From the NCBI RefSeq assembly GCF_900129295.1, contig NZ_FQUU01000014.1, forward strand, positions 62,001-126,000: 64,000 nt of DNA. The letters run 5' to 3'. This document shows positions 27,263-28,418 of the stretch, one piece after another. The translations under genes and the position numbers were made by a program. This DNA is from Flavisolibacter ginsengisoli DSM 18119. Lineage in GTDB: Bacteria; Bacteroidota; Bacteroidia; Chitinophagales; Chitinophagaceae. The stretch's first letter is position 1. The number at the start of each line of letters is the position of its first letter. The notes beneath the pieces are model-generated. The model was given only the letters and a program-made list of their open reading frames with translations. It was not told where the DNA came from and searched no databases.

Positions 27263-27280
27263 AATACATAGAAATAAAAA

Positions 27281-27303
27281 AAGCCTCCTAAGAAAAGAGG
27301 CTA
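27281..27303 (-). terminator. Small terminator closing the array (copy 4)
   Basis: AGCCTC/GAGGCT stem with an A-rich loop, followed on the minus strand by a T-run. Same design as the three other array terminators. Confidence 0.7.
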
Positions 27304-27312
27304 AAGTGTACA

Positions 27313-27364
27313 GAGGAGCAGACTTGAACTGCCGTCCGCCTCAGGCGGATATGAATTCGATGCA
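27313..27364 (-). pseudogene. Broken tRNA-Met 3' portion, copy A
   Basis: On the minus strand it runs from GCATCG through the anticodon loop ATTCATA, then the 15-bp palindrome (27335-27349) in place of the anticodon 3' stem and variable loop, then a T-arm and acceptor 3' strand matching the real tRNA. The 5' half is absent. It overlaps the 3' end of the GIY-YIG gene at 27341. Confidence 0.85.
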
Positions 27365-27619
27365 GTGATATTCCATAATGATCTTTTGATGTATCCAATT
27401 TCTTCCTTGCCCGCTTTTTAATGCTCTTTCTCTTTTCATAGCATCTGCCTTATCTATAAAATACTCACAATAAATTACTTCCCATGGTCTGTATCTTACA
27501 GTCCAACTTTCCCGGGAAAGATAGTTGTGGCTTTTAAAGCGCTCAATAAGGTTAGAAGTAAAGCCTATATATATTTTCTCGTTCTTTGTAGAATAGAGTA
27601 TGTAAACTGTATAAGGCAT
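27341..27619 (-). CDS. Small GIY-YIG nuclease-domain protein (array copy 1)
   Basis: 92 residues, a single GIY-YIG domain of the small YhbQ/UPF0213-like type: YTVYILYS at the start (the GIY strand as VYI), then YIGFTSNLIERFKSHN (YIG plus the conserved Arg), WEVIYCEYF, and a basic helix ERALKSGQGRNWI. The C-terminal FISA and the TGA stop are encoded by the tRNA fragment and palindrome of copy A. By hand alignment about 59 of 92 residues equal those of the second copy. Family members are small DNA-cutting or nuclease-like proteins; actual activity is unknown. A hairpin (AACCCTT/AAGGGT, 27670-27693) lies upstream. Confidence 0.85.
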   Translation of the reverse strand: MPYTVYILYSTKNEKIYIGFTSNLIERFKSHNYLSRESWTVRYRPWEVIYCEYFIDKADAMKRERALKSGQGRNWIHQKIIMEYHCIEFISA

Positions 27620-27699
27620 AAAGCCATTTAAAATAGTAATTTTCTCATTACAAATAAACTTTGATAATAACCCTTCAAGAGGTATTAAAGGGTAATAAA

Positions 27700-27720
27700 A
27701 AAGCTCCAGTAAAGGAGGCT
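27700..27720 (-). terminator. Small terminator in the array (copy 3)
   Basis: AGCCTCC/GGAGCT stem with a bulged C, followed on the minus strand by six T. Confidence 0.6.
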
Positions 27721-27730
27721 AAAGTGTACA

Positions 27731-27785
27731 GAGGAGCAGACTTGAACTGCCGTCCGCCTCAGGCGGATATGAATCCGATGCTCTA
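27731..27785 (-). pseudogene. Broken tRNA-Met 3' portion, copy B
   Basis: Minus strand: TAGAGCATCGGATTCATA, the palindrome (27753-27767), then T-arm and acceptor sequence. It keeps a few more 5' bases (end of the D-arm) than copies A and C. The end reads CTCTGTACA, shared with copy A but unlike the real tRNA end CTCGCTA. Confidence 0.85.
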
Positions 27786-27800
27786 TTTTAGAAATAAGAA

Positions 27801-27820
27801 AGCCTCCTGAAAAGGAGGCT
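27801..27820 (-). terminator. Small terminator in the array (copy 2)
   Basis: Perfect AGCCTCC/GGAGGCT stem followed on the minus strand by TTTCTTATTT. Nearly identical to the terminator behind the intact tRNA. Confidence 0.75.
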
Positions 27821-27830
27821 ATTTAGTAGC

Positions 27831-27884
27831 GAGGAGCAGACTTGAACTGCCGTCCGCCTCAGGCGGATATGAATCCGAATGCTT
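27831..27884 (-). pseudogene. Broken tRNA-Met 3' portion, copy C
   Basis: Minus strand: GCATTCGGATTCATA (one extra T against the tRNA), palindrome (27853-27867), then the T-arm and acceptor strand ending CTCGCTA exactly as in the real tRNA. It lies at the 3' end of the second GIY-YIG gene and supplies its stop codon. Confidence 0.85.
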
Positions 27885-28137
27885 CGTAATCTGAAAATAT
27901 TTTTCGCCTTATCCATTCTCTCCCTTTTCCACCCTTTAATTGTTTTTCGCGAAACATGGCAGATGATTTATCTGGGAAATACTCACAATAAATTACTTTC
28001 CACGGTCTGTAGTTCAATGTCCACCCTTTATGACCTAATTCATTATGGCTTTTGAACATTTCTATCAAATTTGAAGTAAATCCTACATAGGTCTTATTGT
28101 ATTTGGAAGAATAAAGTATATAAACAGTATAACACAT
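27859..28137 (-). CDS. Small GIY-YIG nuclease-domain protein (array copy 2)
   Basis: 92 residues from the ATG at 28135-28137. An in-frame opening 26 codons longer exists but would translate the tRNA remnant at 28179-28200, and the shorter start gives exactly the length of copy 1. The domain is intact: YTVYILYS, YVGFTSNLIEMFKSHN, WKVIYCEYF, EKQLKGGKGREWI. The Arg after the YIG strand in copy 1 (ERF) is Met here (EMF), which could matter for catalysis. C-terminal FISA and TGA come from tRNA fragment C and the palindrome. Paralogue of the gene at 27341-27619. Confidence 0.85.
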   Translation of the reverse strand: MCYTVYILYSSKYNKTYVGFTSNLIEMFKSHNELGHKGWTLNYRPWKVIYCEYFPDKSSAMFREKQLKGGKGREWIRRKIFSDYEAFGFISA

Positions 28138-28178
28138 AAGGCGATACTGAAGATAATAGATTCTCTGCAGGAAGTATA

Positions 28179-28200
28179 AGACCTTAAACTGCCGACCTTG
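28179..28200 (-). pseudogene. Short tRNA-Met T-arm remnant, copy E (no palindrome)
   Basis: Plus-strand AGACCTTAAACTGCCGACCTTG lines up with the real tRNA's AGACTTGAACTGCCGACCTTCG with few changes. Unlike copies A-D it keeps the original GCCGACCTT wording where the palindrome sits in the others. Confidence 0.55.
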
Positions 28201-28243
28201 AAAATAAAACAACAAAAGCTTCGGATGGGATCTTCTCTGTATC

Positions 28244-28297
28244 GAGGAGCAGACCTAAACTGGCGTCCGCCTCAGGCGGATATGAATTCGATGCTCT
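28244..28297 (-). pseudogene. Broken tRNA-Met 3' portion, copy D
   Basis: Minus strand: TAGAGCATCGAATTCATA, palindrome (28266-28280), then a T-arm with two or three substitutions (GCCAGTTTAGGTCTGCTCCTC). Same 5' extent as copy B, from which it lies 513 bases away. More diverged in the T-arm than the other copies. Confidence 0.85.
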
Positions 28298-28318
28298 ATT
28301 TTATTATAGAAATAAGAA

Positions 28319-28338
28319 AGCCTCCAGAAAAGGAGGCT
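28319..28338 (-). terminator. Terminator behind the intact tRNA-Met gene
   Basis: AGCCTCC/GGAGGCT stem, minus-strand T-rich tail TTTCTTATTT, 6 bases after the tRNA 3' end. Confidence 0.8.
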
Positions 28339-28344
28339 ATTTAG

Positions 28345-28418
28345 TAGCGAGGAGCAGACTTGAACTGCCGACCTTCGGGTTATGAATCCGATGCTCTAAC
28401 CAGCTGAGCTACCTCGCC
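28345..28418 (-). tRNA. tRNA-Met (anticodon CAT)
   Basis: 74 bases that fold as a full cloverleaf: acceptor GGCGAGG/CCTCGCT (first pair G-T), D-arm with AGCTCAGCTGGTTAGAGC, anticodon loop TTCATAA, T-arm GGCAG/CTGCT-type stem around TTCAAGT, discriminator A, no encoded CCA. The 1-72 pair and D-arm look like an elongator tRNA, though a CAT anticodon could also be the Ile2 type after modification. The anticodon stem closes with an A31-C39 mismatch, which is unusual. Confidence 0.93.

Follow-up and report, generated by a model that had tools for sequence, protein, structure and literature searches.

A GIY-YIG nuclease gene and a palindrome in arrays of broken tRNA genes of Bacteroidota: a candidate homing-like element

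The array at the tRNA-Met gene

The window analysed in this study is a stretch of 64,000 nucleotides from Flavisolibacter ginsengisoli DSM 18119 (contig NZ_FQUU01000014.1), along which all window coordinates are given. It contains an intact tRNA-Met gene and, behind it, an array of four broken copies of this tRNA, each carrying the same palindrome, together with two genes for small GIY-YIG nucleases. This arrangement is considered here as a putative mobile element of tRNA genes. L and G numbers are our own handles for loci and genomes, respectively.

The genes, broken copies and terminators lie on the minus strand, along which the order is intact tRNA-Met, terminator, copy A, nuclease gene 2, copy B, terminator, copy C, terminator, nuclease gene 1, copy D and terminator. 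The intact gene (CAT anticodon; 28344..28418, called by ARAGORN), which we take to be of the elongator type from its anticodon-stem motif, is directly followed at its 3' side by the inner terminator hairpin AGCCTCC/GGAGGCT (28319..28338). Copy A (28241..28298) consists of the 5' part of the anticodon arm, the palindrome (28266..28280, located by exact-sequence search), the T arm and the acceptor 3' strand, and it is a solo unit, with no GIY-YIG gene between it and the intact tRNA. Nuclease gene 2 (27859..28137, 92 aa, ATG at 28137) has its stop codon within the palindrome (27853..27867) of copy B (27827..27880). The 3' part of copy B is identical to that of the intact gene, and the terminator hairpin behind it (27801..27820) was found alike to the inner terminator in the computed comparison. 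Copy C (27726..27785; palindrome 27753..27767) is again a solo unit, about 100 bp from B, with a terminator hairpin at its 3' side (27702..27720). Nuclease gene 1 (27341..27619, 92 aa) has its stop codon within the palindrome (27335..27349) of copy D (27308..27364), the outermost copy, behind which lies the outer terminator hairpin (27282..27302). The nuclease genes were identified as open reading frames with Pfam matches, and the ends of the broken copies and the terminators were placed by eye.

An initial annotation of this DNA had described four broken tRNA 3' parts beside the tRNA-Met gene, with a palindrome in place of the anticodon 3' stem and variable loop, and both statements hold. All four copies contain TCCGCCTCAGGCGGA (plus strand) and are laid out as an anticodon-arm part (..ATTCATA), TCCGCCTGAGGCGGA, and the T arm and acceptor 3' strand from about position 46; the palindrome replaces tRNA positions of about 38-45, that is, the anticodon 3' stem and the start of the variable loop, as judged by eye. 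The copies are spaced at 413 nt (A to B), 100 nt (B to C) and 418 nt (C to D), and two kinds of unit are present, of about 415 nt with the nuclease gene and about 100 nt without it. The two larger units are in tandem as had been proposed, at a measured spacing of 518 instead of the 517 given earlier (73% identity over the 218 nt aligned), and the 92-residue GIY-YIG gene ascribed to each of them is recognized by Pfam (PF01541). The small terminators mentioned earlier can be seen by eye behind B, C, D and the intact gene; none is evident behind A. Both nuclease frames run into the broken copy, whose anticodon arm and a portion of the palindrome supply the final residues FISA and the stop codon (TTCATATCCGCCTGA, minus strand). 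Copies C and D, as judged by eye, have a common 3' end and terminator start (..CTCTGTACACTTTAGCC), and copy B and the intact gene have another (..CTCGCTACTAAATAGCC).

The exact window palindrome has four occurrences in the 4.68-Mb assembly, all within this array, so it is ruled out as a genome-wide repeat. Because it is confined to the array and the arrangement recurs at other tRNAs of the same genome, the arrangement is more than chance.

Recurrence at other tRNA genes and in other genomes

Eleven GIY-YIG domain matches were found in the genome, the window's two included. Outside the window, two genes lie at tRNA-Val(TAC), one at tRNA-Pro(GGG), one at tRNA-Ser(TGA), where the arrangement is decayed and the palindrome is not clear, and one at a contig start behind an apparent tRNA 3' end; two more (L001, L003) are not close to any tRNA and two lie within longer frames of 494 and 607 aa. 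In the displaced tRNA-Val copy the anticodon arm is replaced by TTCCGCTTAAAGGCGGAA and a second palindrome interrupts the T arm, and at tRNA-Pro CCCCGCCAGAGGCGGGG takes the place of the D arm; different arms are therefore occupied in different tRNAs. ARAGORN still reports the displaced tRNA-Pro copy (L002 1394-1470 / L257), with its palindromic D arm, as a tRNA gene, which carries a risk of false annotation.

A search with nuclease gene 1 gave 46 loci, mainly from Bacteroidota, with a few from Cloacimonadota and candidate phyla and one from Pseudomonadota. Linkage was counted for 49 GIY-YIG genes, namely those of L001-L057 with at least 400 bp upstream, both window genes included and the overlapping L006 and L007 dropped; the window locus apart, these loci were picked by protein and not by tRNA or palindrome. 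A tRNA lies on the same strand within 300 bp upstream in 31/49 (median 53 bp), and a tRNA 3' fragment lies downstream in 21 of the 28 genes having both an upstream tRNA and downstream room. A palindrome was seen by eye beside 24 of the 25 fragments printed, the exception being the decayed tRNA-Ser copy. Among the best 30 loci of a profile search in 295 Bacteroidia genomes, the window locus being one of them, the tRNA is within 300 bp upstream in 21. Broken copies occur at initiator Met, elongator Met, Val, Pro, Leu and, in decayed form, Ser. At Asn and Ala a tRNA and a nuclease gene are present, and the contigs stop before the point where a copy could show. At some loci, clean tRNA-Met copies reaching from about position 33 to the 3' end adjoin unrelated sequence before GIY-YIG units (L213/L214 in G298, L248 in G165, L218 in G029).

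The nuclease family (E <=1e-12) is present in 133 of the 295 Bacteroidia genomes, and the palindrome in its anticodon context (CATATCCGCC..GGCGGAC) in 21 of them, with 0 matches to the reversed control. The family was found in 20/21 palindrome-bearing genomes versus 113/274 others (Fisher p 7e-7, a value that ignores relatedness and includes some family matches not linked to a tRNA). The association of palindrome and GIY-YIG genes that the initial annotation looked for in relatives is thus present, as are the similar units it anticipated at other tRNA genes.

The palindrome and the nuclease

Thirty-nine Met-type palindromes were picked by their outer four pairs alone, so that the pairing of these four follows from the choice. 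In 37 of the 39 the two inner pairs are formed as well (CC/GG 28, TC/GA 6, TT/AA 3; related copies counted separately, so that the 37 are not independent events), and the loop is variable. Pairing is thus kept through changes of the arms. Other palindrome types are TCCCGATTCGTCGGGA (L048) and CCGATAGCTATCGG (L028, tRNA-Leu), and T-arm palindromes are found in L168 and L189.

The nucleases have a length of about 80-92 aa across the family. Gene 1 and gene 2 match PF01541 with E values of 6e-16 and 4e-14 (58.9 and 53.3 bits against a cut-off of 22.6). Among 21 aligned sequences 18 columns are invariant, including Y6, Y17, H31 and E64, and R27 is kept in at least 90%. We take the two Tyr, the Arg and the Glu to be the active-site positions, as in I-TevI; they are conserved in the family, and window gene 1 has all four. 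In the ten closest pairs dN/dS is 0.02-0.25, the lowest value being that of L001/L003, which are not tRNA-linked, and the other nine lying at 0.08-0.25; ratios of this size indicate purifying selection on the nucleases. Several elongator-Met elements resemble those of the window in that the tRNA anticodon arm, together with a portion of the palindrome, codes for the C-terminus (G)FISA.

The AlphaFold2 model of window gene 1 (pLDDT 91.8) gave UPF0213 and Slx1 at E 1e-4 to 1e-3 in a fold search, and I-TevI at E 0.8. The profile search agrees, with 1ywl, 1zg2 and SLX1 as the nearest solved relatives, and the predicted nuclease resembles Slx1/UPF0213 more closely than I-TevI. A sub-threshold match to the group I intron endonuclease family TIGR01453 was also obtained with gene 1 (E 1.6e-4, 21.8 bits, cut-off 56). 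The 21 sequences have no invariant C-terminal Asn, which according to the excerpts of PMC1564403 marks the UvrC/HEase lineage to which I-TevI belongs. In a nuclease tree of 58 rows and 86 columns the tRNA labels change 22 times against a shuffled mean of 33, a value as low being reached in 0/200 shuffles. One nuclease clade for each tRNA is contradicted by this tree, in which clustering goes along with many switches (86 columns only). The tree also sets one Cloacimonadota row among Bacteroidota. In L019 and L020, both of Candidatus Cloacimonadota, a Bacteroidota-type nuclease lies behind tRNA-Asn and the contigs end within the gene.

Occupied and empty sites

Elongator tRNA-Met loci were located in 14 of the 17 other genomes of the genus, and a stretch of up to 1.4 kb was examined. 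Within this distance no tRNA copy above shuffles is present in 12/14; the two remaining loci are L158, which has a solo 100-nt unit with TCCGCCGGTTGGCGGA, and L157, which has a 17-nt remnant. L159 may hold a decayed remnant, as judged by eye. In G110 and G295 a GNAT gene is next to tRNA-Met as in the window, yet the unit is absent. One of the 12, L155 of G298, has a tyrosine-recombinase island behind tRNA-Met (Pfam PF00589, E 9e-22), and about 26 kb beyond this tRNA are found a clean copy of tRNA positions 33-75, two nuclease genes (one shortened) and tRNA pieces. Because this clean copy is the far end of the island, some GIY-YIG genes are without a nearby tRNA.

A more precise comparison was provided by Niabella ginsengisoli (L016), in which an intact tRNA-fMet is followed by a terminator (T-in), the nuclease gene, CATA with palindrome and 3' half, a second terminator (T-out) and an Era-like gene. 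The outer flank of L016 was sought in 59 genomes and matched in 42, mostly through the Era-like gene. Among the 29 loci of relatives taken (L184-L212), 21 have tRNA-Met, and 20 of these 21 are without a tRNA copy within 1 kb, the exception L189 having a solo unit with a different palindrome. In five relatives picked for flank resemblance to the L016 query, T-out stands directly 3' of the intact tRNA-fMet in four, with scores of 24.5-29 where the best shuffles score 9-11; the distance from the tRNA to the start of the Era-like gene is about 0.2 kb in three of these five relatives and 1.1 kb in another. Occupied and empty alleles of the same site, as expected of a homing element, are thus found in Niabella (L184, L185, L186 and L201 versus occupied L016, species and not strains being compared) and in the own genus. 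Judged from these alignments, the Niabella comparison fits an insertion by which a new 3' half and a new terminator were gained, the old terminator remaining on the outer side. The empty tRNA-Met sites anticipated by the initial annotation therefore exist, and neither of the outcomes it had set against mobility was encountered, namely an array at the same place in all relatives without empty sites, or a palindrome and GIY-YIG genes never found together.

Insertion, duplication and arrays on both sides

The initial annotation had proposed that insertion brings a new 3' half and pushes the old terminator outward, for which the Niabella comparison and the empty sites speak. For the wider test, the sequence behind the intact tRNA was compared with that behind the displaced copy. 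Of 27 single-copy loci 26 were taken (L242 is the same locus as L070), and with the flank of L158 too short, 25 were scored. The two sequences are unrelated in 12/25, which is insertion-like.

The other results of this comparison, and those at the window, stand against simple insertion. Inner and outer terminators are alike in 13/25 loci, a pointer to duplication; seven of these continue into the next unit (truncated array), and the other six share the terminator alone, which is not given by insertion of a foreign unit. An earlier comparison (39 loci in, 33 scored) had classified the 27 single-copy loci as 16 alike, 8 unlike and 3 between, and the multi-unit loci have alike terminators in 5/6 and unlike ones in 1/6. 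In the window itself the terminators of the intact gene and B are alike, those of C and D look alike, and because of this the array is understood to be built stepwise and at least partly by duplication. Moreover, when a foreign 3' half as in the Glomus mORFs (see below) was looked for, the displaced and the intact copy proved to differ little in their 3' halves at most loci, which thus bear no direct mark of a foreign donor. By the measure of a replacement gene end, there are nearly identical 3' halves, unrelated terminators in 12 of the 25 loci, and an outer terminator matching that of relatives in Niabella. Insertion and local duplication seem both to occur. Amplification in tandem is seen most clearly in G108, where a 457-bp unit follows tRNA-fMet directly in 10.2 copies of 99% identity; G280 and G060 have three units each.

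The initial annotation had foreseen growth on the 3' side only, and this part does not stand, as broken copies with a new 5' half are also found upstream of the tRNA. They consist of a 5' half, palindrome, T-arm piece, new leader and the next 5' half (L029, L035, L023, L036, L249). In L036 palindromes follow at 74-nt intervals, three times, ahead of tRNA-Val, and L249 has two upstream copies and three downstream units, all with the one palindrome TCCGTTGGCTAACGGA. A mirrored arrangement is present in L049 of Candidatus Kerfeldbacteria (1650-2008), where a broken 5' copy with a D-arm palindrome, the nuclease gene and an intact tRNA-Met follow each other, the tRNA 5' end overlapping the nuclease 3' end. 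In view of the upstream and mirrored copies any model must run in both directions, and a break repaired from either side does so.

Proposed mechanism and alternative explanations

We consider it probable, though with considerable room for doubt, that the units belong to a homing-like tRNA-gene element, in which a break made by the nuclease in the tRNA gene is repaired by the addition of a unit, so that a working tRNA is regained. Such an element would have about 0.35-0.5 kb (about 0.1 kb without the gene) and reside inside tRNA genes. Its unit would comprise the tRNA 3' part (about 38-75), terminator, GIY-YIG gene, anticodon-arm 5' part and palindrome, the last abutting the old 3' part, which starts at about position 46. 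As a first step, the GIY-YIG protein, whose role as break-maker is suggested by its linkage, conservation and family, would break the intact tRNA gene, near the anticodon in the Met family. A unit may then be copied from an occupied gene of another cell or of the sister chromosome, with the tRNA halves as homology. This would give back an intact tRNA whose 3' half and terminator are new, the old 3' half now lying further out, behind the palindrome. The restored tRNA could be broken again, giving more rounds and more units, and if the process runs leftward from the break, upstream units with a new 5' half and promoter would arise. The palindrome would replace the arm at the break, so that displaced copies should cease to be substrates, and the missing positions 38-45 may have been lost as trimming of the right end proceeded to the point of homology. 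Both the repair route and this role of the palindrome are our inference. The mechanism would account for the regenerated gene, the new terminator where it is present, the two-sided arrays and the amplification.

Besides the terminators and 3' halves discussed above, several observations weigh against this reading. The intact tRNA should stay cleavable, a cost which classical homing avoids, and its persistence in occupied loci is contrary to a strictly protected allele. A separate DNA-binding domain that would account for specificity is not visible in the Pfam, NCBIfam and model analyses, and window gene 2 has Met in place of the near-invariant Arg27. In the protein-picked set 18/49 genes are without a tRNA within 300 bp upstream and 7/28 without a detected fragment, and 9/30 of the best-30 set are without an upstream tRNA, three of the nine being inner array members. 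Precise empty sites are available for one occupied locus alone (L016), and the fifth Niabella relative (G334), although unoccupied, has a T-in-like terminator, perhaps from a past visit of the element. For the own tRNA-Pro unit the flank was found in congeners, and the tRNA is absent in the five loci examined. The search with the L016 nuclease and the profile search revealed no clear carrier phage or plasmid: the L016 query gave 0 phage records and one weak plasmid match (Azospirillum, 36%), and the profile search gave two weak viral contig matches.

Among the alternatives, a cassette-like integration survives best and is nevertheless unlikely. Here the units would be passive circles with the tRNA 3' part as attachment site, an island tyrosine recombinase would act in trans, and the GIY-YIG gene would be cargo. 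The downstream arrays have the geometry of integration at a tRNA, the intact gene corresponding to attL and the 3' fragment to attR; the G298 island lies behind the same tRNA-Met with the clean 33-75 copy at its far end, and similar clean copies adjoin unrelated sequence in L248 and L218. This explanation leaves unexplained the upstream arrays with a new 5' half (L029, L036, L249), the palindrome beside nearly all displaced copies as well as those in D, anticodon and T arms, and the recurrence of a conserved nuclease gene as cargo.

Plain tandem duplication is less likely still as a full account. A GIY-YIG gene would have settled once behind a tRNA, unequal recombination would have duplicated the region and the broken copies would be decaying. 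The alike units and terminators of the window, the 13 single-copy loci with alike terminators and the near-perfect tandem arrays are as expected from it; the unrelated inner and outer terminators of the other 12 loci and the Niabella empty sites are not. Recurrence at several tRNA kinds is likewise against it, and decay would not produce palindromes of a single class that occupy the same tRNA-Met position across many families and have changed arms that still pair. A role at the RNA level is very improbable. The broken tRNA and hairpin would then provide the nuclease mRNA or tRNA-processing enzymes with a 3' end or a decoy, and RNA would be the substrate of the protein. The kept pairing, the nuclease frame running into the tRNA piece and the broken tRNA-Pro still called by ARAGORN agree with it; against it, palindromes of the same kind occur elsewhere in these genomes away from tRNAs, solo and upstream units have no nuclease gene, and empty sites and tandem units are not predicted by it.

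Relation to known systems

Tyrosine-recombinase islands at tRNA genes encode an integrase, are kilobases long, and regenerate an intact tRNA with a 3' fragment at the far end. The element described here shares with them the regenerated tRNA and the far-end fragment; the islands differ in their encoded integrase, their length, a tRNA copy without palindrome and their restriction to one side. No integrase gene is present in the units of the window and of the fully read loci, which hold the GIY-YIG gene alone or no gene.

By analogy, the proposed way of working is already known from the mobile ORFs (mORFs) of fungal mitochondria, which bring along a substitute for the 3' end of the gene they enter (Allomyces macrogynus atp6; Glomus sp. 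atp6, atp9, cox2 and nad3) and encode a LAGLIDADG nuclease, or a GIY-YIG nuclease in atp9, according to the excerpts of PMC3630166. In them, as in the proposed element, a nuclease reading frame enters a gene, a new 3' end is brought and the old one is left downstream. They differ in residing in mitochondrial protein genes, and the excerpts of PMC3630166 mention no tRNA genes, palindrome at the displaced end or two-sided arrays. Their inserted end is also clearly unlike the displaced end, whereas the two hardly differ here. SegB of phages T4 and T6 is a free-standing GIY-YIG homing endonuclease beside tRNA genes, for which breaks in tRNA sequence with homologous recombination have been proposed to give tandem amplification of tRNA plus nuclease (excerpts of PMC13096335). 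It is like the present nuclease in adjoining tRNA genes and in the proposed tRNA breaks; it differs in belonging to phages and amplifying full-length tRNA, and neither intragenic half-replacement nor a palindrome appears in those excerpts. The standalone Slx1/UPF0213 (YhbQ-like) nucleases are nearest by profile and fold among solved relatives; SLX1 is a structure-specific nuclease, and standalone members appear without linkage to tRNA genes in the excerpts of PMC1564403. For the combination of this nuclease lineage, bacterial tRNA-gene target, palindrome and two-sided arrays, no description was found in the open-licence PMC literature.

If the homing-like reading is true, one of the smallest selfish elements to carry a gene invades essential tRNA genes, initiators included, again and again, and persists because it rebuilds what it has broken. 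The mORF trick of a replacement gene end would then extend from fungal mitochondria to bacterial tRNA genes, with a cellular parallel to the SegB-driven amplification of phage tRNAs. It would also account for the tRNA fragments and the small orphan GIY-YIG genes in the annotation of Bacteroidota, and offer a candidate partner for the orphan palindromes of this phylum.

Possible hairpin recognition and dispersed palindromes

Because no DNA-binding domain is visible and the fold is Slx1-like, recognition of hairpins would be a natural source of specificity. In a wider and rather doubtful extension, the units would form a hairpin-addressed class of elements, in which a minimal, structure-specific nuclease of the Slx1 type has as substrates the tRNA arms, themselves natural inverted repeats, and its own GC-rich palindrome, and tRNA genes behave as accordions. 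Copies killed by the palindrome would accumulate on either side of a constantly renewed intact tRNA gene, and the same nuclease-palindrome pair may also move dispersed palindromes of the form TCCGCC...GGCGGA.

The looser family TCCGCCN{2,5}GGCGGA is in fact dispersed, with 9 sites in G000, 72 in Niabella, 27 in Pedobacter psychrophilus and 62 in G193, and the palindrome class is therefore not private to the element. Dispersed palindromes as centres of larger stem-loops were rejected, since the flanks pair better than shuffles in just 4/32, a further point against the homing-like reading; as the dispersed copies gave no sign of larger hairpins, our already low confidence in the hairpin-addressed class was reduced slightly. 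Mitochondrial double-hairpin or GC-cluster elements resemble the palindromes described here in being short, GC-rich and spread through a genome; to our knowledge they have no link with a nuclease gene of a tRNA array.

Several of the dispersed palindromes (G331, G332, G193 and others) lie, by eye, within families of similar intergenic repeats. The GIY-YIG genes of L001 and L003, which belong to another subfamily, are found amid an intergenic repeat GTCATCC..GGATC whose centre is replaced by CCCGCC..GGCGGG or TCCGCC..GGCGGA, and these repeats are perhaps a system like the repetitive extragenic palindromes (REP), with a GIY-YIG partner.

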